NCBI RefSeq assembly: GCF_964355755.1 | Contig: NC_092672.1 | Coordinates: 7,688,001-7,752,000 of the forward strand | Reading direction: 5' to 3' | Origin: Antedon mediterranea | Lineage: Eukaryota; Echinodermata; Crinoidea; Comatulida; Antedonidae | Length of the DNA: 64,000 nt | Shown here: positions 1 to 57,416 of the stretch, piece after piece | Position numbering within the stretch: position 1 is the first letter of the stretch | Layout of the letters: every line of letters begins with the position of its first letter | Notes under the pieces: model-generated | Told to the model about the DNA's origin: nothing | Databases searched by the model: none | The model's input: the letters and a program-made list of their open reading frames with translations, nothing else | Made by a program: the position numbers and the translations under genes

Positions 1-34
1 AGTCCAGATTGCAAAGTCCATTTTCAACCAGCAC
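1..34 (-). CDS. aGPCR copy 1 exon: TM5, cut by window edge
   Basis: The first 34 bases match 28962-28995 and encode the CWLKMDFAIW start of TM5. The rest of the gene lies to the left of the window. Confidence 0.8.
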   Translation of the reverse strand, partial: MLVENGLCNLD

Positions 35-3000
35 CTATGAATTAAAATAATAAAAGAATCAAAGTTATGTGTGCATTTTATCTTTTTCTTAAGCATAAAC
101 AGAACTTGTTAAACTCAAGAAAAATTATTACAAAATAACCTATGACAGTAACCTATAAGACATTTAAACTGTTATCATTTGGAGTATAGGGTGTGGTAAT
201 CAATATCATACAGAACGCGACGAATACTGTGCAAGCCATTGTTAACGCATATTTTTATGTTCGCTAAACAATGTAAATGATACAAGCATAGAATTTTACA
301 CTTCATCGGAAACGTAGTTTTTCCTTGTACATCCAGCCGTCACTCCTACGATTATACTAGGAACTATCCAGCCAAGATAACGGCTAAATAAAAAGCGTCG
401 TTCGTGGTTAGCAAACGGATGTCTGATCTTCATGTACACGTCTGTAGACACAATTAGCATCCATGCAAAGGCGGCTAAGAGACTGTAATGTAAGCAACCA
501 GCAATGGCAGCACATACAATCTGGAAAAAAACGAAGAATAATGAGGAAGACGAAGAAAAGGATGAATATCTTAAACAAAAATAAGGACAGTCGACTCAGA
601 AAAAACAGTAAAGTTTTTTTTATAAATATAATAGTATGCTATATCTAGGAAAATGTACTTTAAGCAAGTTTATGTTCGATACTATGATATCGTCTTCCAG
701 TGCCGCCTTTTGTTTTATTAATATTTACAGTAAATCTGAAAACAGGCTAAATGTGGAAAGGGTTAAAAACGCCAGAGCGGCCGATAACAGTGTTGCCAAA
801 AACACTGAATATATTCTATTTTGAAGAATTCATTAAGGAGAGTATGTTTGGAAGGAGTGATGGCATGCCTTTTATGTAGACATATTCTCAGTACTGTATC
901 TCCGCATAAATATTTGTATGATAATAAATATATATAAGGAATATTGGTAATACAGCATCTAATATGTATCGCATGTTGTGCCTGTATCCTAAAAGGTTAA
1001 GGGTTAGCTTATGTTGTACGATACTAGGAGATACATTTCTAGGATACTGGGCAAATCTAGATACAGTACTGCGAATCGGCTGATGATCACCATATCAACC
1101 AAATTTCCAAAGTACAGTATTTGCAAATAAACAATTATTAACTCTGACAAATTTTATTTTGTATAAAGTCATAATAAAATATTTTTTTAAAATAAAATTT
1201 AAATTAAACTTACCTTATTTTTAACATTCACACCTAGGAAGGCATAGAAGAAATTGACGATAAGTAGAGCAACTACCAGATGACAAAGGATTTTATGGCG
1301 CTCAGAATTTCTTAAGCTTCTAAAATAGTAATAATTTTTAGAATCAATTTTAGAATCCAAACATGATTTTATTTTGTTTTTATTTATTTATTTAGGTTTA
1401 AAAACACATACAAAACAGCAGCCATTGGCTGATAACGTTTGTTTACAATCAATATACATATATAATTAAAAGATTAAAGTTTTATTTGAATTAGGACAGT
1501 GGATGTAAACACAACGTCTACTAACTGTATCAATTAAGAGGCTACATAGAAAACATAGCAGGAAAAAATGTTACTTAAGATTATTTTTCGCATTAATATT
1601 ATTATAATAACAAGTGTTAGTGCAAACTTTGTGTCTTAAACAGTTAAATCATGTTTTGTATTTGATAACTTACTTGAAACTGTATATAGTAATCAGGGTT
1701 ATAATAAGAAACAAACTGGAAATACCAAGTCCAACGTTAGTAATTATTGATAAAGTCTTGTCATTAATATTTGACTATAAAACAGAAAGTAATAATAATA
1801 TAATCAATAAACAAAAAGTAGTCGATTTACTAATTGTTAATTTGATTGACTATTCTAACGTCTTCTTCAGTTAAACAGGTTTTCGACAAAGATTTTCAAG
1901 TACATCATGTTGATTCACTCCAACACCTTAACTTATATCATTGAGGTCTCATTCGTATTCAACACATAGTAAACGCATTCAAGTATGTTTTATAACTGTT
2001 ATTTTTTTGTTGTTTATAAATGTTACATTTATAAACAACAACAAATTAATTTATTTATTTTAATCAGGGAAGATAAGTTCAATCCTTCCTTCCATTTATA
2101 TATATAATTAATCATATTTTACCGGTATCGGTTTCATCAAAACGACAAATGACGTCATATGATTACATCTGCATATCACACCATCAATATGGTAGTTTTC
2201 ATAAAAAGTAGAACAACCTTCTGTTGACCATATCCTTAATAAAAAAGTTATTTAACAAGACCTTTAACAATACTGTACCTGACATTTCAAAAACCATTAA
2301 ACATTTCAAAACAAAGTTATTTTTCGTAAATGTGGTATCAATAAGCAACATTCGTCGTAATAGGAGGCACCACTAGGCGATCAATAGGGGAGCTTTCGAT
2401 TTCCAATGAAAAACGATCTTGACAACCTACATCATGGTAATTCACTGTGCGCATGCGGGGATATTGGGACGTGACTCCTCGCTTCAAACCCTGACATAGT
2501 TTTGATGGTTTCTAGATACAAACGACGATCGACGAAACATCGATTGACCTAACCTAGCCAGGTCGTCACAAATCGCAAGCTACCTAATGTTTAGGTTGGA
2601 TCACGGAAGAGTGAACTGAAGCAACGCATGAGGACGTTGATGTGACGCAAGTAAGCGGCTTATCCGAACTTATCTGTCCCACTTGTCTCTCTTTCATTTA
2701 TCATATTTCTATTAATAAATAACTGCCTATACTTACGGCTCTGAAGAGTCCATATTTTCAGTATAATAACACGCTGGTATATATTTCACATTTGTCGAAT
2801 TTTCATTTGTAATGTTCTTGAAAGACAGATATTATTAATAATAATTATACGTTTATATTATGTTTAAATCTTTTAAAACAACCGTTAGTTGCTTAAAACG
2901 TACCTTAATAACAGGAAACTTAATCTCTAAATTCATACCAACTTCCTCGCCTTTGTCATCATATACGTCGATAGTGACAATGTCAGATGAACTTATCATC

Positions 3001-6000
3001 TCCTCATCGTCCCTTTTATAATCGAAAATAAATTAACATAAGAATTTAATAAAATTATACAGTGTACAGTAAAATGATAATTACAATGGTATGTTTTGTT
3101 TATATGTTTTAGAAACTGCAAAACCCTCCTGACAAATTGGATTTTGTTAGTTCTCTACTTGAGTTATCAAGTTAAAAAAAGTAAAATTATTATTTTTGTT
3201 TTGATCTCTGTATGTGTTTCCACCAGACTGTACTGACATTAATAATGATATAACCGTATTAAAAAAAGTTAATTGTCTATGATGTAATAGTAAATGAATA
3301 AAAGAATGTTTTTAAAATAATAATAATATAAATATTAACTTACTGACTTTCTACGTTGAAATGAGTATCTTCGTCAACAGTTTCCTTTTCTGCAACGATT
3401 GTGTATTTTCCATCTAGACAAAGAGGTGAAATATTTGCAAGGCAAAGAGTGATCAGTGAAAATAAAAGAATTATGTAGAGTGAGAGTATCTCAACATTAT
3501 TCCGCATTGTTGAAGAAGGCAGAGTTGTAGGACTAACCTTTAATAAATGTTATAATTATATCAATTAAAAGGTGGTGGTTAGTGGGTTGTTATAATAAAT
3601 ACTTGCGATAATCAAATGTAATGAATATAACTGAAATGCAAACAACTCTTCTGCCTGTAAACAAACATAAGTCCTGGCAAAGACTTTATAATCGATTAGC
3701 GATAAATACGTAATTACAAATTAATATGCAGATTTCGAAAATACATTGTAATGGTTGTTATTACTAGCTATTAAAAATGTGTAAATCACACCTTCTTCTA
3801 TAGAACTATCTGTTGAAGTTGAGAATGTAATGCTATCTGGTTCCGCTGTTAGAGGAACGTCTTTTACCTCCGGTGATGTAATATTTTTGATAACTAAAAA
3901 AAAACAACAAAATGCAACATGTATTTGTCATGTCATCACTTAAATAATGCTACCCTAGATTTCCAGGTTCATAGTTTTAATAAAGTTAATCATTTGCGTA
4001 GAACAACAAAAAATGTTTTCAAAACAACAAAATAAAAGGTTAAATTCAACCAAAACCCCATTTACTTTTAGTTAAATTATAGGTTTTTTTACAGTATAAT
4101 ATACTAAATAATAATAACTATTATGAGACATTAAAATGGCATATTAAACAAACACATTTTTTTTTCAGGGGGACAATTCATCTTAAACAGTTTCCATATA
4201 ATCATTGGTCAGGCAATTTAAAACGTACTTGTTCTAACAAAAATAACAACAAAACAAAGTACTAATTTACTAAAAATAACATTTAATCAAGATATTTACC
4301 CTTAGTTACCGGGATGTTGGTAGTAGCAGGATTAGTAGTAATGGAATCGGTAGTAGCAGGATTAGTAATGGAATCGGTAGTAGCAGGATTAGTAGTAATG
4401 GAATCGGTACCGGTAGTAGCAGGATTAGTAGTAATGGAATCGGTAGTAGCAGGATTAGTAGTAATGGAATCGGTAGTAGCAGGATTAGTAGTAATGGAAT
4501 CGGTAGTAGCAGGATTAGTAGTAATTGAATCGGTAGTAGCAGGATTAGTAGTAATGGAATCGGTAGTAACATGATGACTAGTGGTGGAATCGGTAGTAGC
4601 AGGATGCGTAGTGGTGGTATCGTTAGTAGCAGGATGCGTAGTGGAGGTATCGGTAGTAGGATTATTCGTAGTAGTATCGACAGTGGTATTGGTAGTAGTA
4701 TCGACAGTGGTATCGGTAGTAGGATTATTCGTAGTAGTATTGGTAGGATTCGTAGTGATATCGGTAGTAGTGGGATTCGTAGTGATATCGGTAGTTGCGG
4801 GATTCGTATCGGTAGTAGCGGGATTCGTAGTGACATCGGTAGTAGCGGGATTCGCGGGATTCGTAGTGATATTGGTAGTAGCAGGATTCGTAGTGATATC
4901 GGTAGTAGTGGGATTCGTAGTAATATCGGTAGTAGCGGAATTCGTAGTGATTTCGGTAGTAACGGGATTCTTAGTGATACCGGTAGTAGCGGGATTCGTA
5001 GAGACATCGGTAGTAGCAGCAGGATTCGTACAGGTAGTTTTTGTGGTAGTGGCAGTATTCGTAGCACTATCTATATTCAGCAGTCATGCATGAAAATTAA
5101 AGAATCAGAAAGTAATAAATACTTGTTAAACCTAAACAAAATTGCTTGTATTTTAACATAAAAGAATAGAAAATCGTTCAAAAATAGTAATATCGACGAT
5201 TATTTAAAGGCATAGTATTAGTAGTACACACTCATCAGAGTCCGCCAGTATAATACATTTCTTACATATAAATTAAAATTTAACAGTAAGTTTGTTTTAA
5301 CCTACCCTTGGACACTTCTATACCAGCAAGGAAACCGCCATACGTTACACTCTCATCGGTAGTAAACCTTATAACCAATGTGTTACTTGAAGACAAAGTG
5401 TCTGGTGGCAAAGTATCATCATTGTATTTGGCAATCGTGTTTCCACCGTCAACTGACAAATAATCATAATGTTTTTCAATATGGAAATCGTAGAATTTTA
5501 GTAACAGCACATTTTCAGGATTTGTACAAAACGTCCAGGTGTAGTTCAGATGATTATCATATTTGTCTGGATAATTTTCTGATGTGATGTTCTTAGACTG
5601 GCTTGGATATAGAAAGTAATCACCGGACCATGTTGTTTGACCTTACAAAAGAAAAACATTTATTCATTAAAACTAATTGCCTAATCCAAACAACTACACA
5701 TTCCCCACCACCACACATAAAACCCCCAAAATGAGCAGTTATTGAAGTGTATACTTGATATAACCTGTTGTATAACAATAAGGATGGGCATATCCGTTTA
5801 AAACAATCGGATTTTTATCGGATTCCTATCAACTATTCAGGTAAGAATTGTTTACTTTACTTTTTTTGATGACAACGAAGAAAGTGTTTTCGCTGATAAA
5901 CCTGACCATGGTAATTTTTTTATATTATTACTTTATAATATTAAAGCCACTGTGGTCGTATAGTTTCTCTAGTTTTACTGATGAGGAGGTGATTGCGTTT

Positions 6001-9000
6001 CGACAGGGAAGTATGAAACTAACGACAACTAAAGATTCGTTACACACGCATCTAATTCATGCTCTAAATTGATCAAAACGTATTTTTAAGCATTTTAAAT
6101 TTTTAACGCGTCACATTGAAAAAACAATTAGGAATAAATTAAAACATTTGAAAGATATTGTAAATTGGTTGTGATCATTGTCATTTAACTTTTTGAGATA
6201 TTTGACACACACAATCTTTACAGAAAGAAATATAGACAATGGTTAGTATTACAGTAGCAATATCGGTAGCAGCAAGATTAGTAATACAGTAGTAGTAGCA
6301 GGATTAGTATCGGTAGTATCAGGATTAGTATAGTAATACGATCAGTAGTAGCATGATTAGTATCGGTAGTATCAGGATTAGTATAGTAATACTCTTAGTA
6401 GTAGCATGATTAGTATCGGTAGTATCAGGATTAGTATAGTAATACTATCAGTAGTAGCATGATTAGTATCGGTAGTATCAGGATTAGTATAGTAATACTA
6501 TCAGTAGTAGCATGATTAGTATCGGTAGTATCAGGATTAGAATATTAATACTATTAGTAGTAGCATGATTAGTATTGGTAGTATCAGGATTCGTATAGTA
6601 ATACTATCAGTAGTAGCATGATTAGTATCGGTAGTATCAGGATTAGTATAGTAATACTATCAGTAGTAGCATGATTAGTATCGGTAGTATCAGGATTAGT
6701 ATAGTAATACGATCAGTAGTAGCATGATTAGTATCGGTAGTATCAGGATTAGTATAGTAATACTATTAGTAGTAGCATGATTAGTATCGGTAGTATCAGG
6801 ATTAGTATAGTAATACTATCAGTAGTAGCATGATTAGTATCGGTAGTATCAGGATTAGTATAGTAATACTATAAGTAGTAGCAGGATTAGTATCAGTAAT
6901 ATCAGGATTAGTATAGTAATACTATCAGTAGTGGCAAAATTAGTATCGGTAGTATCAGGATTAATATAGTAATACTATCAGTTGTAGCATGATTAGTATC
7001 GGTAGTATCAGGATTAGTATAGTAATAATATCAGTAGTAGCAGGATTAGTATCAGTAATATCAGGATTAATATAGTAATACTATCAGTAGTGGAAAAATT
7101 AGTATCGGTAGTATCAGGATTAGTATAGTAATACTATCAGTAGTAGCAGAATTAGTATCGGTTGTATAAGGATTTATAGTATACTAATACTATCAGTAGT
7201 AGCAGAATTAGTATCGGTAGTAATCAGGATTAGTATAGTAGTACTCTAAAGTAGTAGCAGAATTAGTATCGGTAGTATCAGGATTTATAGTATAGTACTA
7301 CTATCAGTTGTAGCAGGATTAGTATCGGTAGTATCGGGATTACTATAGTAATACTATCAGTAGTAGCAGAAATAGTAAATTAATATCCGGCAATATGGTA
7401 ATGTGAAGGGAGCCTCGACCTGCCACTATCTTGTACGACTTATTCATGACCTGTGTTCTGCAGTTGACAAAAATCGCAATATTGGCACAGCCGTACTCAC
7501 GGACTTCACCAAAGCGTTTGATCTTATTGAACATAACATCTTAATTAATAAAATTATCAATATTGGAGTCCGTGGGTCGATCATCCCTTGGATTTACAAT
7601 TTTCTCAGCTGCAGAGAACAGTGTGTCAGGTATAGCAACACTATCTAATTACATCCCTCTTAAAGGTGGTGTCCCCATGAGGACTAAGCTTGGGCCTATA
7701 GGTTTCCAGATTCTGGTGAATGATTCACGACAAAGTACGACTACAAAATATTTGTTTTAGCCTACCCTTGTACACTTCTACACCAGCAAGGAAACCGTCA
7801 AACGTTACACTGTAATCGGTAATAAACCTTATAACCAATGTGTTATTTGAAGACAAAGTGTCTGGTGGCAAATTATAACTATCGTATTTGACAGTCGTGC
7901 TTCCATCGTCAACTGACACATAATCATAGCCTGTTTCAATCTGGAACTTGTAGAATTTTAGTAACAGCACATTTTCAGGATTTGTATGAAACGTCCAGGT
8001 GTAGATCAGATCATTTTCATATTTGTCTGGATAATTTTCTGATGTGATGGTCTTAGACTGGCTTGGATATAGAAAGTACTCACCGGACCATGTTGTTTTA
8101 CCTTACAAAAGAAAAACATTTATTTATTAAAACTAATTGTCTAATCCAAACAACCACAGTTCCCCCACATACACATAAAACTCCCAAAATGAGCAATTAT
8201 TGAAGTGTATACTTGATATAACCTGTTGTATAAAAATGAGGATTTGCATATCCATTTAAAGCAATCGGATTTTTACGATTCCTATCGACTATTCAGGAAA
8301 GAATTCTTTACTCTACTTTTTTGATGACAACGTTGAAAGTTTTTTTCGCTGTAAACCTGACCATGATAATTTTTTATTTTATTACTAAAATCACCCTGGT
8401 CGTATAGTTTATCAGTTTCACTGATGAGGAGGTGGCTGCGTTTCAGAAGAGTTAAATTCGATAAACTAAATATTCGACAACTAACGAAAACTAAATATTC
8501 GTTACACATGATACTGAGAACACGTTCAGCCACGACGTGGTTGTGACAGTGTCAAGAACACTGTGTTCTTCAAAACATTTGTTTCAAGAGACTGAGAACA
8601 CGTTCAGTCATGACGTGGTTGTGACAGTGTCAAGAAGACTGTGTTCTTCAAGATATTTGTTTCAAAAGACTGAGAACACGTTCAGCCATGACGTTGTTGT
8701 GACAGTGTCAAGAACACTGTATTCTTCAGGACATTTGTTTCAAGGGACTGAGAACACGTTCAGCCATGACGTGGTTGTGACAGTGTCAAGAACACTGTGT
8801 TCATCAAGACATTTGTTTCAAGAAACTGAGAACACGTTCAGTCATGACGTGGTGGTGACAGTGTCAATACTGTATTCTTCAGGACATTTGTTTCAAGAGA
8901 CTGAGAACACGTTCAGCCATGAGGTGGTTGTGACAGTGTCAAGAACACTGTATTCTTCAGGACATTTGTTTCAAGAGACTGAGAACACGTTCAGCCATGA

Positions 9001-9493
9001 CGTGGTTGTGACAGTGTCAAGAACACTGTATTCTTCAGGACATTTGTTTCAAGAGACTGAGAACACGTTCAGCCATGACGTGGTTGTGACAGTGTCAAGA
9101 ACACTGTGTTCATCAAGACATTTGTTTCAAGAGACTGAGAACACGTTCAGACATGCCGTGGTTGTGACAGTGTCAAGAACACTGTATTATTCAGGACATT
9201 TGTTTCAAGAGACTGAGAACACGTTCAGCCATGACGTGGTTGTGACAGTGTCAAGAAGACTGTGTTCATCAAGACATTTGTTTCAAGAGACTGAGAATAT
9301 GTTTAGTGACAACTGACAACGCTAAATCACTTGTTGTCAGTTATCAATAACAAACTGAAGGAAGTCCATTTCTGCGTGGTAATGTTAATGCCTGTTAAGA
9401 TAGCTGCTCAATAGATTAGTTGAACTTACCAAAAGAAAAGTAATTTAAGTTGATGACAAAAGACAGAACTGCTTTCAACAAAACACGTTTCAT
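1..9493 (-). CDS. Adhesion-type GPCR with two CUB exons, copy 1 (partial at the window edge)
   Basis: This is the paralog of the 26875-37585 gene, near identical over 1-3900. Exons: signal peptide 9430-9493, CUB-A 7766-8101, CUB-B 5306-5641, Thr-rich 4300-5070, stalk 3792-3893, 3344-3413 and 2904-3012, GPS-like 2737-2816 and 2605-2668, TM1 1674-1774, TM2 1214-1319, TM3-4 300-520, TM5 1-34 (cut). TM6-7 and tail lie outside the window. All junctions seen are in frame, including the exon that is frameshifted in copy 2, so this is the better candidate for a working gene. It differs by having two CUB exons with a degenerate repeat array and a LINE fragment between them. Confidence 0.8.
300..520 (-). 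CDS. aGPCR copy 1 exon: TM3-TM4
   Basis: Encodes CAAIAGCLHYSLLAAFAWML and SRYLGWIVPSIIVGVTAG; 221 nt, paralog of 29261-29481. Confidence 0.9.
1214..1319 (-). CDS. aGPCR copy 1 exon: TM2
   Basis: Encodes SLRNSERHKILCHLVVALLI and VNFFYAFLG; identical in length and phase to 30175-30280. Confidence 0.85.
1674..1774 (-). CDS. aGPCR copy 1 exon: TM1
   Basis: Encodes KTLSIITNVGLGISSLFLII, the family B TM1 pattern; 101 nt, donor GTAAGT, phase 0 in and 2 out. Confidence 0.85.
2605..2668 (-). CDS. aGPCR copy 1 exon: second half of GPS-like motif
   Basis: Encodes SDKPLTCVTSTSSCVASVHS and Ser, joining TM1 in phase 0. Two cysteines remain, but the canonical CxC and HL-T/S cleavage site are not present; His-Ser-Ser is the nearest match. 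Autoproteolysis is doubtful. Confidence 0.5.
2737..2816 (-). CDS. aGPCR copy 1 exon: first half of GPS-like motif
   Basis: Encodes IPACYYTENMDSSE after three Asn-rich sequons; acceptor CTGTCTTTCAAG, donor GTAAGT, phase 0 in and 2 out. Confidence 0.6.
2904..3012 (-). CDS. aGPCR copy 1 exon: GAIN-like strands
   Basis: Counterpart of 32631-32739; encodes SDIVTIDVYDDKGEEVGMNL then EIKFPVIK, 109 nt, phase 2 in and 0 out. Confidence 0.65.
3344..3413 (-). CDS. aGPCR copy 1 exon: stalk / GAIN-like
   Basis: Counterpart of 33072-33141; encodes GKYTIVAEKETVDEDTHFNV, phase 1 in and 2 out. Confidence 0.65.
3792..3893 (-). CDS. aGPCR copy 1 exon: stalk
   Basis: Counterpart of 33520-33621 with the same 102-nt length and phase 1-1; it encodes IKNITSPEVKDVPLTAEPDS and a Ser/Thr-rich end. 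Confidence 0.65.
4300..5070 (-). CDS. aGPCR copy 1 exon: Thr-rich mucin-like repeats
   Basis: The 771-nt, phase 1-1 exon is open throughout as 27-nt units encoding TTNPATTDI variants, with longer TTDTTVDTTT-like units in the middle. An O-glycosylated stalk is likely. Unit number and order differ from copy 2, as expected for an unstable array. Confidence 0.8.
5306..5641 (-). CDS. aGPCR copy 1 exon: CUB-B domain
   Basis: Same length and phase as CUB-A, with SENYPDKYDNH, NVLLLKFYDFHIE, YDYLSVDGGN, PPDTLSSSNTLVIRF and GGFLAGIEVSKG. Acceptor TTTTGTAAG, donor GTAGGT. It contains one Cys at an unusual place (TWTFCTNPE). Confidence 0.8.
6230..7375 (-). repeat. 53-bp minisatellite derived from the mucin exon
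   Basis: About 20 units of a 53-bp sequence built from the Thr-rich repeat (minus strand AATCCTGATACTACCGATAC). 53 is not a multiple of three, so it cannot encode a repeat protein in one frame. It lies between the CUB-A and CUB-B exons. Confidence 0.85.
7403..7738 (+). mobile_element. LINE reverse-transcriptase fragment
   Basis: The plus strand encodes TAVLTDFTKAFDLIEHNIL (RT motif A), IPWIYNFLSCREQCVRY and, after a frameshift near 7640, IPLKGGVPMRTKLGPIGFQI (the GVPQG-LGP motif, degenerate). It is a non-LTR retrotransposon remnant abutting the CUB-A exon. Confidence 0.75.
7766..8101 (-). CDS. aGPCR copy 1 exon: CUB-A domain
   Basis: The 336-nt, phase 1-1 exon contains SENYPDKYEND, NVLLLKFYKFQIE, YDYVSVDDGST, PPDTLSSNNTLVIRF and DGFLAGVEVYKG. 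No cysteine is left in this CUB domain. A reverse-transcriptase fragment abuts its 3' end. Confidence 0.8.
8513..9310 (+). repeat. 78-bp minisatellite in aGPCR copy 1 intron 1
   Basis: About ten copies of a unit containing GAGAACACGTTCAGCCATGA and CAGTGTCAAGAACACTGT. The paralogous intron has about four shorter copies at 37105-37400. Each unit has a small palindrome (GTGTCAAGAACAC). Confidence 0.9.
9430..9493 (-). CDS. aGPCR copy 1 exon 1: signal peptide
   Basis: ATG at 9493-9491 opens MKRVLLKAVLSFVINLNYF, a signal peptide; donor GTAAGT in phase 1. Confidence 0.8.
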
Positions 9494-10370: not shown

Positions 10371-10648
10371 ACATAGGTATAGGTGATTTAATTTAAATTA
10401 TCACCTTATAAGTTGTTGACGATGTTATTTGGAATGTCGACCAAAAACACCAATGGTTTCAGCAGCTGAAAGAACGAGTGAACAACTAAATACAGCGATG
10501 TCACTTTATTTTCAAATAGACACATTTACAGTAGAACAATTTTGAAATAAAATACACTATATTACATGTGTGCTACTATTATTGTATAGTTTGCACTACT
10601 GAGAAAGTACCAGTATGTAGACTAGAACCTGTATTATGTAAGACTTAC

Positions 10649-17900: not shown

Positions 17901-17924
17901 CACGATTTGTCGACTGGCTGTCCC

Positions 17925-46200: not shown

Positions 46201-49200
46201 TCATAGTATCGGTAGTCCCAGGACTAGTAGTCGTAGTATCGGTAGTTGCATGACTAGTAGTCGTAGTATCGGTAGTAGCAGGATTAGTAGTCGTAGTATC
46301 GGTAGTTGCAAGACTAGTAGTCGTAGTATCGGTAGTTGCAGGATTAGCAATCGTAATATCGGTAGTTGCAGGACTAGTAGTCGTAGTATCGGTAGTTGCA
46401 GGACTAGTTGTCGTAGTATCGGTAGTTGCAGGACTAGTAGTCGTAGTATCGGTAGTTGCAGGACTAGTAGTGGTAGTATCGGTAGTAGCAGGACTAGTAG
46501 TCGTAGTATCGGTAGTTACAGGACTAGTAGTCGTGGTATCGGTAGTTGCAGGATTAGTAGTCGTAGTATCGGTAGTTGCAGGACTAGTGATTGTAGTATC
46601 GGTAGTTGCAGGACTAGTAGTCGTAGTATCGCCAGTTGCAGGACTAGTAGTCGTAGTATCGTTAGTTGCAGGACTAGTAGTCGTAGTATCGGTAGTTGGA
46701 GGACTAGTAGTCGTAGTATCGGTAGTTGCAGGACTAGTAGTCGTAGTATCGGTAGTTGCAGGATTAGCAATCGTAGTATCGGTAGTTGCAGGAGTAGTAG
46801 TCGTAGTATCAGTAGTTGCAGACTAGTAGTCGTAGTATCGGTAGTTGCAGGATTAGCAATCGTAGTATCGGTAGTAGTAGGACTAGTAGTCGTAGTATCG
46901 GTAGTTGCAGGACTAGTAGTCGTAGTATCGGTAATTGCACGACTAGTAGTCGTAGTATCGGTAGTTGCAGGACTAGTAGTCGTAGTATCGGTAGTTACCG
47001 GACTAGTAGTCGTAGTATCGGTAGTTGCAGGACTAGTAGTCGTAGTATCGGTAGTTGCAGGAGTAGTAGTCGTAGTATCGATAGTTGCAGGACTAGTAGT
47101 CGTAGTACCGGTTGTTGTTGCAGAACTAGTAGGCCTAGTCGTAGTATCCGTAGTTGCAGGACTAGTAGTCGCAGTATCGGTAGTTGCAGGATTAGGAATC
47201 GTAGTATCGGTAGTAGCAGGACTAGTAGTCGTAATATCGGTAGTTGCAGGACTAGTAGTCGTAGTATCGGTAGTTGCAGGATTAGCAATCGTAGTATCGG
47301 TAGTTGCAGGACTAGTAGTCGTAGTATCAGTAGTTGCAGACTAGTAGTCGTAGTATCGGTAGTTGCAGGATTAGCAATCGTAGTGTCGGTAGTAGCAGGA
47401 ATAGTAGTCGTAGTATCGGTAGTTGCAGGACTAGTAGTCGTAGTATCGGTAATTGCACGACTAGTAGTCGTAGTATCGGTAGTTGCAGGACTATTAGTCG
47501 CAGTATCGGTAGTTACAGGACTAGTAGTCGTAGTATCGGTAAGTTGCAGGACTAGTAGTCGTAGTATCGGTAGTTGCAGGACTAGTAGTCGTAGTATCGG
47601 TAGTTGCAGGACTAGTAGTCGTAGTACCGGTTGTTGTTGCAGGACTAGTAGGCCTAGTCGTAGTATCCGTAGTTGCAGGACTAGTAGTCGCAGTATCGGT
47701 AGTTGCAGGATTAGCAATCGTAGTATCGGTAGTAGCAGGACTAGTAAGCGTATTATCAGTAGTTGCAGGACTAGTAATCGTAGTATCGGTAGTTGCAAGA
47801 TTAGCAATCGTAGTATTGGTAGTTGCAAGACTAGTAGTCGTAGTATCAGTAGTTGCAGACTAGTAGTCGTAGTATCGGTAGTAGCAGGACTAGTAGTCGT
47901 AGTATCGGTAGTAGCACGACTAGTAGTCGTAGTATCGGTAGTTGCAGGACTAGTAGTCGTAGTATCGGTAGTTGCACGACTAGTAGTCGTAGTATCGGTA
48001 GTTGCAGGACTAGTAGTCGTAGTATCGGTAGTTACAGGACTAGTAGTCGTAGTATCGGTAGTTGCAGGACTAGTAGTCGTAGTATCGGTAGTTGCATGAC
48101 TATTAGTTGTAGTATCGGTAGTTGCAGGACTAGTAGTCATTGTACCGGTAGTAGCAGGATTATTACAGTATTCGTAGTATCAGTAAGTATCAAGATTAGT
48201 AGTCGTAGTATCGGTATTAGCAGGACTACTACAGAAGTCATAGTATCCGTAGTAGCAGGATTGGTAGTCGTATCCTTAGTAGCAGGACTAGTAGTCGTAG
48301 TATCGGTAGTAGCAGGATTAGTGGTCGTAGTACCGGTAGTAGCAGGACTAGTAGTCGTAGTACCGGTAGTAGCAGGACTAGTAGTCGTAGTATCGGTAGT
48401 AGCAGGACTAGTAGTCGCAGCATCGGTAAGAAGCAGAACTAGTAGTCGGAGTATTTGTAGTAGCATAGTTGTATTAGCCAGTATCAATAATATTAGTAGT
48501 AATACCGGTAGTCGCAGGATTAGTAGAAGTAGTACCATTAGTGGATATATTAGTTGTAGCGGTACCGGTGGAATATACGACTGTGGTAACTTGTGGACGT
48601 TGAATCGGTGCTTTCACAATATTTTTTTCTGTTTTTTTAATAAAAAGAAGAAAAACACAATATTAGCAGGAATAAAAGTCGTAGTATCGGTAGTAACAGG
48701 ATTAATAGTCGTAGTATCGGTATTTGCAGGACTATTAGTCGTAGTATCGGTAGCAGCAGGATTAGTAGTCGTAGTATCGGTAGTTGCAGTACTAGTAGTC
48801 GTAGTATCGGTAGTTGAAGGACTAGTAGTCATAGTATCGGTAATTGCACGACTAGTAGTCGTAGTATCGGTAGTTGCAGAACTATTAGTCGCAGTATCGG
48901 TAGTTACAGGACTAGTAGTCGTAGTATCGGTAAGTTGCAGGACTAGTAGTCGTAGTATCGGTAGTTGCAGGACTAGTAGTCGTAGTATCGGTAGTTGCAG
49001 GACTAGTAGTCGTAGTACCGGTTGTTGTTGCAGGACTAGTAGGCCTAGTCGTAGTATCCGTAGTTGCAGGACTAGTAGTCGCAGTATCGGTAGTTGCAGG
49101 ATTAGCAATCGTAGTATCGGTAGTAGCAGGACTAGTAAGCGTATTATCAGTAGTTGCAGGACTAGTAGTCGTAGTATCGGTAGTTGCAAGATTAGCAATC

Positions 49201-52200
49201 GTAGTATCGGTAGTTGCAGGACTAGTAGTCGTAGTATCAGTAGTTGCAGACTAGAAGTCGTAGTATCGGTAGTAGCAGGACTAGTAGTCGTAGTATCGGT
49301 AGTAGCACGACTAGTAGTCGTAGTATCGGTAGTTGCAGGACTAGTAGTCGTAGTATCGGTAGTTGCACGACTAGTAGTCGTAGTATCGGTGGTTGCAGGA
49401 CTAGTAGTCGTAGTATCGGTAGTTACAGGACTAGTAGTCGTAGTATCGGTAGTTGCAGGACTAGTAGTCGTAGTATCGGTAGTTGCATGACTATTAGTTG
49501 TAGTATCGGTAGTTGCAGGACTAGTAGTCATTGTACCGGTAGTAGCAGGATTATTACAGTATTCGTAGTATCAGTAAGTATCAAGATTAGTAGTCGTAGT
49601 ATCGGTATTAGCAGGACTATTACAGAAGTCATAGTATCCGTAGTAGCAGGATTGGTAGTCGTATCCTTAGTAGCAGGACTAGTAGTCGTAGTATCGGTAG
49701 TAGCAGGATTAGTGGTCGTAGTACCGGTAGTAGCAGGACTAGTAGTCGTAGTACCGGTAGTAGCAGGACTAGTAGTCGTAGTATCGGTAGTAGCAGGACT
49801 AGTAGTCGCAGCATCGGTAAGAAGCAGAACTAGTAGTCGGAGTATTTGTAGTAGCATAGTTGTATTAGCCAGTATCAATAATATTAGTAGTAATACCGGT
49901 AGTCGCAGGATTAGTAGAAGTAGTACCATTAGTGGATATATTAGTTGTAGCGGTACCGGTGGAATATACGACTGTGGTAACTTGTGGACTTTGAATCGGT
50001 GCTTTCACAATATTTTTTTCTGTTTTTTTAATAAAAAGAAGAAAAACACAATATTAGCAGGAATAAAAGTCGTAGTATCGGTAGTAACAGGATTAATAGT
50101 CGTAGTATCGGTATTTGCAGGACTATTAGTCGTAGTATCGGTAGCAGCAGGATTAGTAGTCGTAGTATCGGTAGTTGCAGGACTAGTAGTCGTAGTATCG
50201 GTAGTTGCAGGACTAGTAGTCGTAGTATCGGTAGTAGCAGGATTTGCAATCGTAGTATCGGTAGTAGTCGGACTAGTAGTCGTACTATCGGTAGTAGCAG
50301 GATTTGCAATCGTAGTATCGGTAGTTGCAGGACTAGTAGTCGTAGTATCGGTAGTGCAGGACTAGTAGTCGTAGTATCGGTAGTGCAGGACTAGTAGTCG
50401 TAGTATCGGTAGTAGCAGGATTTGCAATCGTAGTATCGGTAGTTGCAGGACTAGTAGTCGTAGTATCGGTAGTAGCAGGATTTGCAATCGTAGTATCGGT
50501 AGTTGCAGGACTAGTAGTCGTAGTATCGGTAGTTGCAGGACTAGTAGTCGTAGTATCGGTAGTAGCAGGACTAGTAGTCGTAGTATCGGTAGTGCAGGAC
50601 TAGTAGTCGTAGTATCAGTAGTTGCAGGACTAGTAGTCGTAGTATCGGTAGTGGCAGGACTAGCAGACGTAGTATCGGTAGTAGCAGGACTAGTAGTCAT
50701 AGTATTGGTAGTAGCATGACTACACACTAGTAGTCGTGGCATTGGTAATAGCACAGTTCGCATTAATCAATATTGTCAGTAGTATCAATAATATTAGTAG
50801 TAATACCGGTAGTCGCAGGATTAGTAGAAGTAGTACCAGTAGTTGAAGGATTAGTTGTAGCGGTACCGGTGGAATATACGGCTGTGATAATCTGTGAACT
50901 TTGAATCTGTGCTGTCACAATATTTGTATCTGATTTTTTTTAAATAAAAACAAAGACACAATTAACGATGGCCTACACTCACTGAATGATCGATAGTTCC
51001 TCCGGGGTAAACGGAGTTCATACTGTGTTTTTAAAATAAACTCTCACACTTTCTCCGCAAGGAATTGTCTCACTAAAGATGCTAACCGGTTGTGGGCGAC
51101 TATTTATTAGTATGCATAATATGTTATTTAAATGTGTTTATGTCTTTGTCCTAAAAATTGTCTAAAGGGTGTGTCTGAACTTAATCGTCTGAACTTAATT
51201 AATAGAATGGTGCAAATTCTGCGGGAAAAAGTAAGTTTGGGTTTTCTATGTTTTAGTATATCATAGAATAGCATCTATGCCACTTTTAAATTCTTGCAAA
51301 AAAAAAAATCTGATATGTTTTTATCCTGTACAAATATGTTTTTAAATAAATAAATAAAATGCGAAGAGATGAGGCGCACGGCCAGACTAAAATAGTGAAT
51401 TATCTTCTTTTTTAAGTTTTTAAGTCTTTATTACATTTTTCCCACAAATGTGTATATCTACTGTTCTGCACCCAGCTTTATGAACATACCTTCAACATTT
51501 TCTGCAACAAAAATATCATCAACAGCTATAAATCCATACCTAGTAATTCCGGTAATCTTCACATAATTTCGCAATAAACGATTAGTAAATGCTGCACTTG
51601 CAAATGCCCATCCATATCTAATTGACTTAGAAATGTGAATTAAACGATGGGAAGAGCCTTTGAAATGGTGTGTTACCATTAGTGTTGTATCGCTGTTCAT
51701 GTAATAATTAAACTGAATAGATACACTTTTCCAATTTGTTGGTAAATCTGGACTCTGGATGTATTCGGAAGTATACCTTCCATTAGCTTCAACATAAATA
51801 TAATAATTACCTGAAAAAAATTTTGGTAATAATAAAGCAATGTATATTAAAATTAATATGCATTTTTTAAGAAATTGATATCCGCGTCTGCTTTTGCGAC
51901 CTTCTTGTTAAGTTTCTCAAACTGTCTAAGGTCCTGCTTGATTACTGTACTAGTCAAGGCAAAGTCATTAATGATGTGGCCAAACTTCCGAACAGAAAGT
52001 AAAATTAACACGAATTTGATAACAACATAAAAACTTTTAATGTCAGACATGTTTCGTCGTATTGTTATACAACATCATCAGTGAAGTGAGAGCTATACGC
52101 ATTTTCACATGAGGTTTAAATAGGTTTGTTTGTGCATAACAGGTGTAAAGAAATAAGTAGTATTATAATACGTACTGAACTACTTTGCATTAAATACTTA

Positions 52201-55200: not shown

Positions 55201-57416
55201 AGGAACACAGTTTACCAATTTGCACCAGTCATCGAAAATCATATAAATATTTATTTTAACAGCCCCTTACTATCGATACAATTGGCCTGATTTTGTTCAT
55301 TTTTTCTTTTCCATAAGAGCTTATGTCATGCTGTTTAATGACATTATGTATTTACTGCAAGTCCAGTAAATATGGAATATTGGTTTGACCTACCCAGGGG
55401 TAGTAGTACTAGGGGAAGTTGTCATAGGAGTAGCCTAGTTTTCCTATGAGTATGGGTAGTTGTTCTAGGAGGTAGTTGTTCTAGGAGGTAGTTGTTCTAG
55501 GGGGTAGTTGTCCTAGAGGGTAATTGTCCTAGGGGGTAGTTGTCTTAGAGGGTAGTTGTCCTAGGGGGTAGTTGTCCTAGAGGGTAGTTGTCCTAGGGGG
55601 TAGTTGTCCTAGGGGGTAGTTGTCCTTGGGGGTAATTGTCTTAAGAGGGTAGTTTTCCGGATGGTAGTTGTCCCAGCAGGGTAATTGTCCAGGTGGTAAT
55701 TGTCCGGGTGGTAGTTTTCCGGGTGGTAGTTGTCCTAGACCCGATTTACGAATTATATTTTTGGAGAACAAGAAATAAACAAAAATCAAGTAGCCGGATT
55801 CAAATTTTATTCGATGAATCAGATCAGCAATGCCGAAATAATAGATCATCAATAGAATGTGTGTTTGAGCAGTGCGTGCTGAAATAAATGGCCAGTGTGA
55901 ATCAATTATAGGTCGTTGTGATTTTAGCGCTGTTAGTTGAATCAGTGTTGTTTTCAGTGAATTTAACACTACTGACGTTAGTTTTTTACTCACTAGTTGA
56001 GATTAAATGGACAATATGTGAATCAGTATAATAATTGATGTTTTTAGAGCTGTTAAGTTGCTTAGAAGGGAATGAGTGTCCGGTATTTGGATCACTATAA
56101 TTGGTTGTTGTGTTTTACCTCTGCTGGTAAGTCGCGTACTTACTAGTGTAGGTTGAGTACTCAGCATTGATTACATCATTTGACCGTTTCCATACTTTGT
56201 GGAATACTTTGTCTCGTTTACTGCCTCTTTTAAGAAAGGTTGGCACCAGGGTTTGCATACGACTCCATCCATTAAAACCATATTCAAAGTCAGCGCAAAA
56301 GCCTTCTGTTTCTGTTTCTAAATTGAAAGAAGTTAACATGACTAAAATATAAACAAATTAGAATTTCAGAATTGTATTTTAAAAATAAACAGATTTTTCT
56401 TTTTCAGAATCAATATTTATTATCATCATTGTCATCGTTTTCGTTGTCATCACCATTATCATTATCATCTTTATTATTATCACACAATTGAGGTATGTTG
56501 AATTGAATTTGTGCTGTAAGTTTGCTTGAGCCATTTAATCTAATTATATTACACTGAGTTTACAATACACCTCATGTGATCATCATCATCATCATCATCA
56601 TCACCATAAATAATTTCTTTTATAGTAGTATTCGCTTTAGCCTTACCGTTGCCACTGTACGCTTCAATACCAGCAAAGAAACCTCTATGTTGCCCACTGC
56701 TATCGGTAGTAAACGTAAGGTCCAATGTGTTACTTACAGAAGACAAAGTGTCCGGTGGCGTGTACGAGTTGCTGTAGTCGGTATGACGATTATGATCAAT
56801 TACTATTAAAAGGTCATTTGATCGGAGAGAAAAATCGTAAAATTTGAGCAACAGCAAATGTCCTGGATATGTACGAAACTTGTAATCGTAGATCAGATCA
56901 TTAAAATATTTTCTTGGATAATTAGGTGATGATATATTCTTCGAATGGTTTGGACATATGAAGTACTCGTCGGACAATGCCGTTTGCCCTTTATTAAAGT
57001 ATAAAATAAAATGTTTTTATAAAACGAAACAAGCCAAAAACAAACCGTACAAAGATAAAACAATAATAGCGAAGGTGAGCATATTGTTCAAAGCAGTTTA
57101 CGATTAATTCAATTTAACCATAATATGTTATTTATGTCACCGTAATCATTACTTTTCTTGGTTTCATTGATGAGGACGAACCCATCGGCACGAAAAAAGT
57201 TTTAAAAAAACTACAGATTCGATTAAGAACACTTTCATCTATAACGTGGTTGTAACAATGCCAAAAACACTTGTATAAAACAATGTAGAATTAAAGTCCA
57301 TATATATTATGTTTAGATATATAACTGATCAAAACACTAGATATGTACTTACCATCAGAAAAGTAATTTAAGTTGATAACGAAGAACAGAAATGTTTTAA
57401 ACAAAACACTTTTCAT
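40170..57416 (-). CDS. Receptor tyrosine kinase with CUB-MAM-mucin ectodomain (whole gene span)
   Basis: The gene is assembled from exons whose phases agree: 57353-57416 signal peptide, 56647-56988 CUB, 56144-56317 and 51490-51810 MAM, a Thr-rich repeat exon ending near 43119, 42879-43040 TM, 42585-42776, 42278-42459, 41824-41913, 41244-41455, 40920-41057 and 40401-40539 kinase, 40170-40286 tail with stop. The product should be a type I plasma-membrane receptor that phosphorylates tyrosines on ligand binding. The kinase has the glycine loop GGGRFGKV, VAVK, HGDLAARN, DFG and SDVWSFGV. All junctions outside the mucin array join in frame; the mucin region is the uncertain part. I know no standard RTK family with CUB + MAM + mucin; ALK/LTK carry MAM domains but in a different context. 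No symbol can be assigned. The promoter is not identified. Confidence 0.85.
40401..40539 (-). CDS. RTK kinase exon 6: CW-x6-RPTF motif
   Basis: It encodes YSIMKRCWKKSPDKRPTF, the conserved end of the tyrosine kinase domain (CW-x6-R), followed by an amphipathic stretch ending NDYLPMESNAEM. The exon ends in phase 0. Confidence 0.9.
40920..41057 (-). CDS. RTK kinase exon 5: C-lobe WSFGVVLYEI
   Basis: This 138-nt exon starts WSFGVVLYEIFTYGKVPYP and ends NCPHQ, matching the alpha-F/alpha-G region of tyrosine kinases. It runs from phase 2 to phase 2, and both junctions make Val with the neighbouring exon. Confidence 0.9.
41244..41455 (-). CDS. RTK kinase exon 4: catalytic loop, DFG, activation loop
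   Basis: It encodes KIVHGDLAARNIL (catalytic loop with Gly in place of the usual HRD Arg), VADFGLG, activation-loop tyrosines in DVYERGYIKL, VPVKWYSLE and SSESDV. It ends in phase 2 with donor GTAAGT. The catalytic Asp and Asn are kept, so activity is plausible. Confidence 0.9.
41824..41913 (-). CDS. RTK kinase exon 3: short insert and alpha-E helix
   Basis: The 30-codon, phase 0-0 exon encodes a short acidic kinase insert followed by IGLVELYSLARQITSGM, the alpha-E helix. The insert is far shorter than in split-kinase families such as PDGFR. Confidence 0.85.
42278..42459 (-). CDS. RTK kinase exon 2: alpha-C helix and hinge
   Basis: It contains FKNEIDLMIQL (alpha-C glutamate), HKNVLGILKC and LLIITEYMKYGSLLHFL, a hinge with Thr at the gatekeeper position. 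This layout is typical of receptor tyrosine kinases. The exon ends in phase 0 with donor GTATGT. Confidence 0.9.
42585..42776 (-). CDS. RTK kinase exon 1: glycine loop and VAVK lysine
   Basis: The exon encodes the juxtamembrane region, then LIGGGRFGKVFSC (nucleotide-binding loop) and INVAVKTPL (ATP-anchoring lysine). It is 63 codons plus split codons, phase 1-1. No counterpart is seen in the decayed paralog. Confidence 0.9.
42879..43040 (-). CDS. RTK exon: juxtamembrane and transmembrane segment
   Basis: The 162-nt phase 1-1 exon encodes EPSTLQTS, then a hydrophobic helix (IAPVLLVGIIVPSVCLAVLI), then the basic stop-transfer RYRNKHR. This is a single-pass type I membrane anchor. The donor is GTAATT. 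Confidence 0.8.
43119..44916 (-). CDS. RTK mucin-like exon (3' part, boundaries approximate)
   Basis: About 600 codons stay open on the minus strand as repeats of TTSPATTDTT, with variants such as IANPATTDTT. A Thr/Pro/Ser repeat of this kind is expected to be densely O-glycosylated and to act as an extended stalk. The frame is closed upstream by TAG at 44917-44919, created by a 1-nt deletion in a repeat unit. Every unit contains ACTAG, so acceptors are plentiful and the true start cannot be chosen. The donor at 43118 (GTTCAT) is weak but gives the phase the TM exon needs. Confidence 0.5.
50763..50929 (-). CDS. Possible leader exon of the RTK mucin region
   Basis: A phase-1 acceptor (AAAAAAATCAG) opens DTNIVTAQIQSSQIITAV followed by TTNPSTTG-type Thr-rich sequence, then meets TAA at 50763-50765. 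It would join correctly to the MAM exon. Two further copies of this leader with their own acceptors lie at 50019 and 48628. Each meets a stop after about 50 codons, so an internal splice or decay must be assumed. Confidence 0.4.
51490..51810 (-). CDS. RTK exon 4: second part of MAM domain
   Basis: This phase 1-1 exon of 106 codons begins NYYIYVEANG and contains YIQSPDLP, ISIQF-like VSIQFNYYM, YVKITGITRYGFIAVDDIFV. This matches the distal half of a MAM domain (Y-Y-Y-E, SP, IAIDDI). The acceptor is TTTTTTTCAG and the donor GTATGT. Together with the preceding exon it gives about 163 residues, the usual MAM size. The 4.3-kb intron upstream holds a Helitron, a Penelope fragment and a fold-back element. 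Confidence 0.85.
51848..52110 (-). mobile_element. Penelope-like element, 5' fragment
   Basis: A hammerhead-like motif (52046-52081) is followed by a short frame ending FEKLNKKVAKADADINFLKN, which resembles the N-terminal part of Penelope-like proteins, then a stop. It lies just upstream of the second MAM exon. Confidence 0.5.
52046..52081 (-). ncRNA. Hammerhead-ribozyme-like motif
   Basis: CTGATGA, a six-base-pair hairpin (TGTTGT / ACAATA, loop ATA), CGAC, GAAACATGTC; flanking TCA and TGA can start stem I. The order matches the minimal hammerheads of Penelope-like elements, with extra bases after stem II. Confidence 0.45.
52856..54283 (-). mobile_element. Second copy of the same Helitron family, in an RTK intron
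   Basis: On the minus strand it begins TCTATATTATAAGTGAGAGA after A and ends with CCCGCCCTGGGGCGGG, ATAATTG, CTAG before T. Internal sequence parallels 33830-35191 with indels. Confidence 0.82.
54543..55738. mobile_element. Fold-back element with minisatellite arms
   Basis: The left arm (54543-54722) repeats CTAGGACAACTACC units of about 18-20 bp; the right arm (55437-55738) repeats GGTAGTTGTCCTAG, the reverse complement. About 700 bp of non-repetitive sequence lies between. No transposase is seen. Confidence 0.6.
56144..56317 (-). CDS. RTK exon 3: first part of MAM domain
   Basis: The exon opens with ETETEGFCADFEYGFNGW, the C-DFE-G--GW signature that starts MAM domains. It is 174 nt, phase 1-1, with donor GTAAGT. 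A shorter homologous exon lies in the decayed paralog at 18417-18536. Confidence 0.8.
56576..56606 (+). repeat. (CAT)n microsatellite
   Basis: Nine or so CAT/ATC units in the intron after the RTK CUB exon; it creates a false poly-Asp extension if the donor is ignored. Confidence 0.85.
56647..56988 (-). CDS. RTK exon 2: CUB domain
   Basis: This phase 1-1 exon encodes about 113 residues of a CUB domain. Visible hallmarks are SSPNYPRKY, HLLLLKFYDF, PPDTLSS, NTLDLTFTTD and RGFFAGIEAY. Only one Cys is seen (FICPNHS), so the usual two CUB disulfides are absent. The acceptor is TTTATTAAAG and the donor GTAAGG. CUB domains usually mediate extracellular protein binding. Confidence 0.8.
57353..57416 (-). 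CDS. RTK exon 1: signal peptide
   Basis: The ATG at 57416-57414 opens MKSVLFKTFLFFVINLNYF, a Lys followed by a hydrophobic stretch ending near Ser-Asp, typical of a signal peptide. The donor GTAAGTAC follows in phase 1. The exon is 64 nt, the same length and nearly the same sequence as the first exons at 37522-37585, 9430-9493 and the decayed 25071-25134. Confidence 0.8.

Follow-up and report, generated by a model that had tools for sequence, protein, structure and literature searches.

Receptor tyrosine kinase and adhesion-GPCR genes with one kind of ectodomain head in a tandem array of Antedon mediterranea

In this study, we analyzed a stretch of 64,000 nt of Antedon mediterranea DNA (the window), which forms the right end of a ~150-kb tandem receptor array. 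When the window was taken together with the 100 kb to its left (a 164-kb region, C3:7.59-7.75 Mb), eight signal-peptide (SP) exons of one family were found, all on the minus strand, each 64 nt long and in phase 1. Three of them begin receptor tyrosine kinase (RTK) genes, one apparently intact (G1) and two broken in the assembly (G3 and G5), and the other five precede adhesion-GPCR (aGPCR) tails; the array continues for at least 80 kb left of the window, where further aGPCRs and the third RTK, a broken one, are located. When the region was queried with the SP peptide of G2, each of the seven remaining full copies was matched (E 4e-7 to 1.5e-6); a search of the whole genome with the 64-nt DNA gave four places, all in the array, and missed four known copies. 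No SP exon was found before G7b, whose CUBs are damaged, or before G10. The heads are composed of CUB, often MAM and often a Thr-rich stretch, and the tails of either a transmembrane (TM) segment and tyrosine kinase (TK) or a GAIN-region/GPS and seven helices (7TM). Phase-1 borders were found at the SP, CUB, MAM, Thr-rich, first aGPCR-tail and RTK-TM exons. All exon joins across the array are predicted from DNA, and the junction finder pairs a donor with an acceptor only if their phases are equal, so that phase agreement is partly built in and the donor phases are its independent part.

The preliminary description of this DNA had read four minus-strand genes in the order RTK, aGPCR, decayed RTK, aGPCR, each opening with a 64-nt phase-1 SP exon followed by CUB exons, with Thr-rich stretches in the three intact genes and with different outputs. 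This reading was borne out. All four first exons were located, each of 64 nt and with a phase-1 donor; CUB exons follow them (Pfam CUB 5.7e-16 on a composite of G2), and Thr-rich stretches occur in G1, G2 and G4. The outputs indeed differ, since a composite of the G1 kinase exons behind the TM exon of a related gene on C4 matched PK_Tyr_Ser-Thr at 5.9e-76, and G2 matched GPS (3.3e-6) and 7tm_2 (2.5e-35). Two features can be added to that description, namely a MAM domain in the RTK heads and a second CUB exon in G4.

Coordinates of the window genes are window positions on the minus strand. Exon 1 of G1 (57353-57416) encodes the signal peptide MKSVLFKTFLFFVINLNYFS in 64 nt and ends in phase 1. 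It is followed by phase 1-1 exons for CUB (56647-56988) and for the first and second parts of MAM (56144-56317 and 51490-51810); for the CUB acceptor the splice score preferred an internal site at 56862, and the homologous 56988 was adopted. The MAM score, 25.8-26.4 bits, is at the Pfam cut-off of 26.4. Next comes a Thr-rich, mucin-like minisatellite with a 30-nt unit in ~252 copies (43117-50722, 7.6 kb), whose exon joins are putative; the join to be bridged here spans 8.4 kb and ~252 units, and the exon structure is ambiguous from DNA. The TM exon (42879-43040), whose phase-1 acceptor scores weakly, precedes the tyrosine kinase exons (40371-42776: 42776-42585, 42459-42278, 41913-41824, 41455-41244, 41057-40920 and from 40539), in whose open frames GGGRFG, VAVK, HGDLAARN and DFG were found. 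By reading, the catalytic residues K, E, D of HGD and DFG are present, and the Arg of HRD is replaced by Gly. Thus, an SP, an ectodomain, a single TM and a kinase were all found in G1 with compatible phases, through predicted joins of which the TM acceptor is weak and the Thr-rich join ambiguous.

The first aGPCR, G2, begins with a 64-nt, phase-1 SP exon (MERVLLKTFLIFVINLNYFS, 37522-37585), followed by phase 1-1 CUB (36381-36716) and Thr-rich (35414-36151) exons and by a first tail exon with a phase-1 acceptor (IKNITSPEVKD..., 33520-33621). The GAIN-region exons and GPS (CRCNHMTSFVVLM) occupy 30981-33141; some joins are uncertain, and no credible junction was found directly before the GPS. A partial G2 composite gave no Pfam match to the GAIN model; the exons before the GPS are conserved, with uncertain joins. 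The seven-helix exons (27931-30632) start with TM1 at 30632, TM2 at 30280, TM3-4 at 29481, TM5 at 28995 and ICL3 at 28467, and end with TM6-7 at 28105-27931. G7, to the left of the window, matched 7tm_2 at 3.6e-37 and GPS at 6.7e-7, and G4 and G6 were recognized via tblastn with the G2 exons. A predicted cleavable H-x/T site was read directly among these aGPCRs (CNHMTSF and CTHLTSF), and among solved structures the array 7TM is nearest in sequence to ADGRL3/L2.

An intact frame is absent from two of the three RTKs, from G5 by two frameshifts and from G3 by an ATA start, a TGA and missing exons. The SP exon of G3 (IERVLL...INLNYFS, 25071-25134) has ATA for ATG. Its CUB exon is split into a 5' part with the in-frame TGA (23764-24024) and a 3' part (19079-19159), separated by ~4.6 kb containing a transposase ORF. 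A remnant of the first MAM exon (18457-18537) and the last three kinase exons (12144-13982: 13982-13773, 13533-13399 and 12278-12144) follow, and no earlier kinase exons were found at E 0.01. G4, an aGPCR, comprises an SP exon (MKRVLLKAVLSFVINLNYFS, 64 nt, phase 1, 9430-9493), first and second CUB exons (7766-8101 and 5304-5641), a Thr-rich exon in open frame (4286-5083), the first tail exon, GAIN-region exons and GPS (2111-3891), and TM1 to TM5 (1-1774). TM5 spans the window edge, and TM6-7 lie outside the window, to its left, at C3:7686970-7687146.

Another feature common to the two classes is an element of ~500 bp, which was found at eight genomic places, seven of them before SP exons of RTKs and aGPCRs, so that it precedes seven of the eight genes with such an exon. 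In the window it lies before G2 (38591-39100, adjoined at 39091-39305 by a second, partial copy), G3 (25897-26418, 72% identical to the G2 copy) and G4 (10569-11073), and it was not found before G1. One copy is next to transposase-like ORFs, with no head within 9 kb, and in 10 kb searched at the copy at C4:13.40 Mb neither SP nor CUB nor MAM was matched at E 0.1. An upstream element common to both classes suggests that they may be regulated in common.

The parting of head and tail is seen directly in a single case, the RTK G5 and the aGPCR G7. Their heads are 94% identical in DNA over 3.7 kb (90663-94360 and 60381-64086 of the joined region); the end of the last MAM exon is at 90712 and 60429, respectively, and the similarity stops ~50 nt beyond, inside a phase-1 intron. 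The CUB DNA tree groups G3 and G5 with G7 (98.5/98) and with G7, G9 and G8a (96.9/99). A single clade of RTK heads was rejected (AU P=0.005): the G3/G5 heads group with aGPCR heads and not with that of G1, a long branch of unsure position. Long stretches of the array are nearly identical to one another, with 77037-83713 and 108493-115159 being 98.0% identical and 96881-101386 and 125839-130347 99.2% identical (joined region). The preliminary description had proposed that an RTK-aGPCR pair was duplicated as a unit. Neighboring stretches were so duplicated; a single clean duplication of a pair does not describe the history, since the G3/G5 heads group with aGPCR heads, the kinase tree is indecisive and two of the three RTKs are broken.

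Relatives of both tails occur behind other heads elsewhere in the genome. At C4:8.57 Mb the same TM and TK tail stands behind YWTD/EGF, with an EGF-to-TM join in phase 1 and 83-94% DNA identity to the array kinases in the kinase exons; a further, more distant C4 kinase sits behind Ig-type exons, and the head of a C11 kinase gave no SP, CUB or MAM match at E 0.1 within 10 kb. Likewise, aGPCRs that are 62-64% identical in the TM3-4 exon carry HYR ectodomains, one on C4 (Pfam) and two on C9 (by reading), and an exon similar to the first tail exon of G2 occurs in such genes. Phase-1 acceptors are kept at loci with quite different heads, both by the first exon of the aGPCR tail and by the TM exon of the RTK tail. 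The preliminary description had invoked exon shuffling or gene fusion at phase-1 introns to give the two classes one head; these relatives and the G5/G7 head support it.

The kinase tails of G1, G3/G5 and C4 are, by sequence comparison, close kin, with no branching order decisively favored. The G1 kinase exons are 86-97% identical in DNA to those of G3/G5. Over all introns of the kinase tail that were compared, matches were obtained in 5/5 for G1-G5 and in 1/6 for G1-C4; the blastn comparison of the introns beyond the first, which these totals include, gave 4/4 for G1-G5, 1/5 for G1-C4 and 1/4 for G5-C4. Exon identity is higher for G1-G5 than for G1-C4 in six of seven exons (not TK2b), and higher for G5-C4 than for G1-G5 in TK1. 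The kinase coding tree weakly places C4 with G3/G5, apart from G1 (83.5/63 for DNA, 75.3/65 for protein), and so leans opposite to the intron evidence. The array kinase tails as one clade were not rejected (P=0.24 and 0.16), nor was any branching order, so that fusion may have taken place separately in G1 and in G3/G5. A clade of array kinases apart from C4, as suggested by one intron, was not retained as a conclusion, since the coding exons weakly pair C4 with G3/G5. We also discarded a candidate kinase remnant in G7 (58.6-59.4 kb, joined region), a block common to G7, G3, G5 and C4 which proved to be an interspersed repeat (40 of 2853 candidates scored). Outside this repeat the C4 intron is not alignable with those of G1, G3 and G5, and the block is therefore taken as a separately inserted repeat.

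We consider it probable that, through intronic recombination within the tandem array, two signaling classes came to carry the same fast-changing recognition head. A 5' cassette bounded by phase-1 introns and consisting of the upstream element, the SP exon, CUB exons and, in many cases, MAM and Thr-rich exons would have been joined to either a TM and tyrosine kinase or a GAIN-region/GPS and seven-helix tail. Unequal exchange and duplication between introns would have built the array, with kinase tails moving behind aGPCR-type heads once or twice. Intact members would be surface receptors whose fast-changing CUB/MAM heads bind ligands, so that the same class of binding event could be read out in two ways, by tethered-agonist G-protein signaling (via the GPS HM/T, with TSFVVLM as agonist) or by tyrosine phosphorylation. 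From the sequence we infer splicing, function, co-expression and a common ligand. It is a speculative and rather unlikely extension that the array is a recognition locus, in which a cassette for both regulation and recognition, its CUB/MAM heads under diversifying selection, is kept on two signaling classes, one family of surface cues (from self or non-self, a partner or a microbe) is sensed by a cell through both routes, and intronic recombination supplies new pairs of head and output.

The head exchange could instead be devoid of functional meaning, with kinase tails caught in an aGPCR array, heads homogenized by gene conversion and unequal exchange, kinase genes decaying and no paired recognition by two routes. 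We give this explanation somewhat less than an even chance. G3 and G5 are broken, and the kinase branch may be on its way out; blocks of 98-99% identity beside blocks of 82% clearly point to conversion or duplication in the recent past. However, G1 retains its kinase motifs in open exons, and 13 of the 14 array CUB exons in the tree are open over the matched stretch despite amino-acid change (the exception is G3; the damaged CUBs of G7b were omitted). The rate of that change is uneven: CUB dN/dS among close paralogues ranges from 0.26 (G10a/b) through 0.51 (G5/G7) and 0.63 (G7/G8a) to 1.8, with 9.3 for G4a/G4b. Positive selection as a firm claim was rejected, as among 13 pairs only G4a/G4b, together with the double G4b/G6a, reached P=0.0037, uncorrected. 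It is improbable that heads and tails belong to different genes, with headless receptors alternating with genes for small secreted proteins of CUB, MAM and mucin parts. The predicted nature of all joins, the ambiguous Thr-rich join of G1 and the failure to find a credible junction before the G2 GPS would allow it, yet no other first exon was recognized between heads and tails by reading, three RTK copies and several aGPCR copies repeat the order and the phase-1 borders, and both kinds of tail keep phase-1 acceptors behind foreign heads. Least credible is an assembly artefact, in which mis-joined haplotypes or repeats, as the long, nearly identical blocks might suggest, only mimic the alternation of RTKs and aGPCRs, since the units differ in CUB number, insertions and decay state in a mosaic of 82-99% identity, G5 and G7 have near-equal heads with different tails at different places, and the window and pieces L001-L010 contain 0 N.

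Most cases from which exon shuffling between classes of receptor has been inferred are old and blurred. Under recombination between introns of the array, the shuffling would be so recent that its joint can be located in one phase-1 intron, among genes that are still neighbors, and the long-standing question of how recognition and signaling are affected when the same ectodomain switches between kinase and GPCR output would become testable in one locus. Receptors with MAM/CUB ectodomains, the domain types of the array heads, include ALK/LTK and the neuropilins; to our knowledge, their ectodomains are not shared exon by exon with a neighboring GPCR. In the same genome, a CUB array at C10:21.40-21.51 Mb (CUBs 39-45% identical to a G7-type query) contains a CUB-MAM-ZP gene whose head, like those described here, has CUB and a two-exon MAM, but whose tail is of a third kind, a ZP domain and TM (read in one gene). 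Symmetric phase-1 modules thus have different partners, 7TM and TK in the array and, by domain content only, ZP on C10.

The preliminary description knew of no described family of this kind. In the titles, abstract openings and passages searched, which mostly excluded subscription papers, we found no array in which genes for RTKs and aGPCRs have an ectodomain in common, and that part stands, with Venus kinase receptors as a partial precedent. These are invertebrate RTKs with a class-C-GPCR-like Venus flytrap (PMC4026697), so that in them, as in the array, the ligand-binding part of an RTK is of a kind used by a GPCR class. That resemblance is one of domain type, whereas the array heads reach 94% DNA identity, match in phase and lie within one array. 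The array pieces scanned contained no Venus flytrap, and the G1 MAM and kinase pieces matched only MAM and kinase models of Pfam. ADGRG6/GPR126 carries a CUB near its N-terminus, then GAIN/GPS and 7TM, an order shared by the array aGPCRs, and also a pentraxin domain (PMC13197933); pentraxin was not seen in the G2 and G7 pieces scanned, MAM and Thr-rich exons occurring instead, and in the array a head of this kind is found on an RTK as well. Finally, the GPCR-TK fusions of sponges and choanoflagellates have 7TM and kinase in one protein (PMC12716839), and in both systems GPCR and tyrosine-kinase outputs are linked in evolution. In the array, 7TM and TK exons occupy different stretches and each gene from G1 to G6 starts with an SP exon of its own, so that the DNA does not indicate a single GPCR-TK protein; in contrast to the fusions, 7TM and kinase are here alternatives behind one head and belong to separate genes.

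In the source genome (354 Mb, 18 contigs), the window, C3:7688001-7752000, and the 100 kb to its left were joined into one region, in which a window position equals the region position minus 100000. All genes treated lie on the minus strand and are numbered G1 to G10 from 5′ to 3′. One signal-peptide (SP) family (xVL...INLNYFS) is encoded by eight exons, each running exactly 64 nt to its phase-1 donor, at region positions 157416, 137585, 125134, 109493, 93646, 78035, 63371, and 36983; a partial copy at 28616 is the ninth. The preliminary description had reported four such exons in the window, and these are indeed the first four of the eight; that of G3 has ATA in place of ATG. Gene contents were obtained from exon-peptide matches against the region. 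G1 is a receptor tyrosine kinase (RTK) gene with SP, CUB, MAM, and kinase (TK) exons, G3 is a decayed RTK gene, and G5 is an RTK gene (CUB, MAM, TK) whose second MAM exon and TK2 are frameshifted. Adhesion GPCR (aGPCR) genes comprise G2 (SP, CUB, GPS, 7TM), G4 and G6 (two CUBs each), G7 (CUB-MAM head), G7b (damaged CUB-MAM-CUB head), G8/G9 (two heads ahead of a single 7TM tail), and G10 (CUB-MAM-CUB). By the same matching, no SP exon was found in the region for G7b or G10. Based on these contents, three of the eight SP exons begin RTK genes and five stand before 7TM tails. Open Thr-rich frames are present in G1, G2, G4, G6, G9, and G10.

Several other elements lie in the window. A minisatellite of ~252 copies of a 30-nt unit, reading TTDTTTTSPA in one frame with internal frame changes, occupies 43117-50722, and two more lie in G4 introns (6279-7368, 20 copies of 53 nt; 8513-9297, 10 copies of 78 nt). 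A DDE_Tnp_4 transposase ORF of 335 aa (21375-22382) lies within the split CUB exon of G3, between its two parts. An ORF at 14478-15032, with a weak GIY-YIG match below the cut-off, may be a Penelope-like element, and a long plus-strand open frame at 63299-64000, which extends past the window edge, had no Pfam match above its cut-off.

The point at which head and tail part can be located by comparing an RTK gene with an aGPCR gene. Counting introns, the heads of G5 (region 94360-90663) and G7 (64086-60381) share 94% identity across 3.7 kb. Because 90712 in G5 and 60429 in G7 mark the end of the last MAM exon, the similarity breaks off ~50 nt inside the next phase-1 intron; from 60200 on, G7 is like the aGPCR genes G8/G9. 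In the CUB DNA tree, the RTK genes G3 and G5 group with the aGPCR gene G7 (98.5/98), then with G9 and G8a (96.9/99), and the RTK gene G1 stands apart, its head being a long branch. The CUB protein tree, with weaker support, groups G3, G5, and G7 (84/82), then G9 (83/81), with G8a outside. A constraint uniting the three RTK heads was rejected (AU P=0.005). In exon DNA, G1 and G3/G5 share 86-97% identity across their kinase tails, and the kinase-tail introns of G1 and G5 match in all five compared. When kinases from C11 and a more distant locus on C4 served as outgroups, the kinase coding tree placed the C4:8.57 Mb gene weakly with G3/G5 (83.5/63; 75.3/65), and no order was rejected. G3 and G5 thus combine aGPCR-type heads with a kinase tail. 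This tail may be derived from that of G1, or G1 and G3/G5 may have been joined separately.

The junction finder joins equal phases only, so the donors constitute the independent evidence on intron phase. A phase-1 donor follows the second MAM exon in G1, G5, G7, G8, and G10. In G2, predicted phase-1 joins connect the SP, CUB, and Thr exons to one another and to the first exon of the aGPCR tail. The acceptor of the RTK TM exon is in phase 1 in G5 and, though weakly scored, in G1. The same phase occurs where these tails follow other heads on C4 (EGF to TM exon; HYR to first tail exon). For the CUB exon, the top-scoring acceptor in G1 is internal, the homologous one ranking second, and in G5 the top-scoring one (92573) lies upstream of the homologous place. 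Read from sequence, heads and tails are shown to be rejoined modules with phase-1 borders, with one joint placed.

An RTK-aGPCR pair had been proposed to have duplicated as a unit. Neighboring blocks were in fact copied: region 77037-83713 matches 108493-115159 at 98.0% and spans the end of an RTK gene and exon 1 of the aGPCR gene after it, and 96881-101386 matches 125839-130347 at 99.2% and spans the end of an aGPCR gene and the upstream element of the RTK gene after it. The CUB/Thr parts of G2 and G4 differ by 18%, and the array is a mosaic to which both duplication and conversion contributed, rather than a single clean pair duplication. Intron-to-intron recombination inside the tandem array would have rejoined heads and tails. 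The upstream element, 510 bp long and located 1 kb ahead of the G2 SP exon, gave nine matching rows at eight genomic places: before G2 (two adjoining copies), G3, G4, G5, G6, G7, and partly G8, and once at C4:13.40 Mb. It lies 0.8-3.3 kb 5′ of SP exons of both RTK and aGPCR genes; before G1, no match >25 nt was found in the 14.6 kb searched. The lone C4 copy (L020, C4:13398486-13398879) adjoins transposase-like ORFs.

Related tails carry other heads elsewhere in the genome. The closest kinase detected beyond the array, at C4:8.57 Mb, has six kinase exons in common with it (73-96% aa to G1, 83-94% in DNA) and a TM exon with 54% aa in common, and its ectodomain is Ldl_recept_b plus EGF; in the 24 kb upstream, neither CUB nor MAM gave a match, and SP gave no good one. 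The gene reads (L011-L013, C4:8566001-8596000, minus) as a YWTD/LDLR-B plus EGF RTK with the TM and kinase tail of the array family, and its last kinase intron holds a ~700-nt interspersed repeat, as in G3 and G5. The more distant C4 kinase has Ig-type exons ahead of the kinase. At a related kinase on C11, an open frame of 2.6 kb (L021:6973-9555) starts with tandem kinase-exon peptide copies (ISRQIAKGMVSNYDPVTDYTNLDKIYLKDLF). Beyond the array, the closest TM3-4 exons in the search reached no more than 63% identity; one belongs to an aGPCR at C4:14.06 Mb with HYR and GPS (Pfam), and two C9 genes among them resemble it by reading. Full CUB exons matched a G7-type query at 48-97% in the array and at ≤47% elsewhere among the matches listed, the best candidates. 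At C10:21.40-21.51 Mb (L024-L025) lies a CUB-exon array; the single gene read there, CUB-MAM-ZP-TM, pairs this head type with a third kind of tail. Taken with the array, the C4, C9, and C10 loci place a CUB-MAM head with kinase, 7TM, and ZP tails, and kinase and 7TM tails also with very different heads. CUB and 7tm_2 matches lie close to each other on one strand at C3:33.33-33.47 Mb and C1:6.9-7.3 Mb, perhaps additional CUB-headed aGPCR clusters.

Pfam recognized CUB (5.7e-16), GPS (3.3e-6), and 7tm_2 (2.5e-35) in the G2 composite, the same three domains in that of G7, and PK_Tyr_Ser-Thr (5.9e-76) in the G1 kinase exons. MAM reached 25.8-26.4 bits in G1 (cut-off 26.4), 43.8 bits for the second MAM exon of G7 scanned behind a G1 piece, and 28.0 bits for that of G8. 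By sequence, the solved relatives nearest to the kinase are an EGFR-labelled entry, RET, and FGFRs, and those nearest to the 7TM are ADGRL3/L2. The GPS sequences of G2 (CNHM/TSFVVLM) and G7 (CTHL/TSFVVLL) fit predicted cleavage and a tethered agonist, judged by PMC13197933 and by general background on aGPCRs. The G1 kinase retains the G-loop, VAVK, Asp, and DFG, with HGD replacing HRD; the loop HGDLAARN for HRDLAARN (window 41243-41455) recurs in G3, G5, two C4 relatives, and C11.

CUB dN/dS was 1.2-1.8 in the G2/G4/G6 group, 9.3 for G4a/G4b (32 nonsynonymous, 1 synonymous), 0.63-1.18 among G7, G8a, and G9, 0.51 for G5/G7, and 0.26 for G10a/b. An uncorrected P=0.0037 was obtained in two of 13 CUB pairs tested, the two being in effect one comparison. 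For the tail exons, values were 0.10-0.76 (TM3-4) and 0-0.18 (TM6-7). Heads are taken as evolving faster than tails, with selection as a candidate cause only.

GPCR-TK fusions and aGPCR heads with domain shuffling (PMC12716839), a CUB domain in ADGRG6 (PMC13197933), and Venus kinase receptors (PMC4026697) have been described. In the literature surveyed, we found no description of two receptor classes sharing one head in one array. Phase-1 exon shuffling of receptor ectodomains is a known principle; what appears new, as read from this genome, is its operation across two receptor classes within one array.
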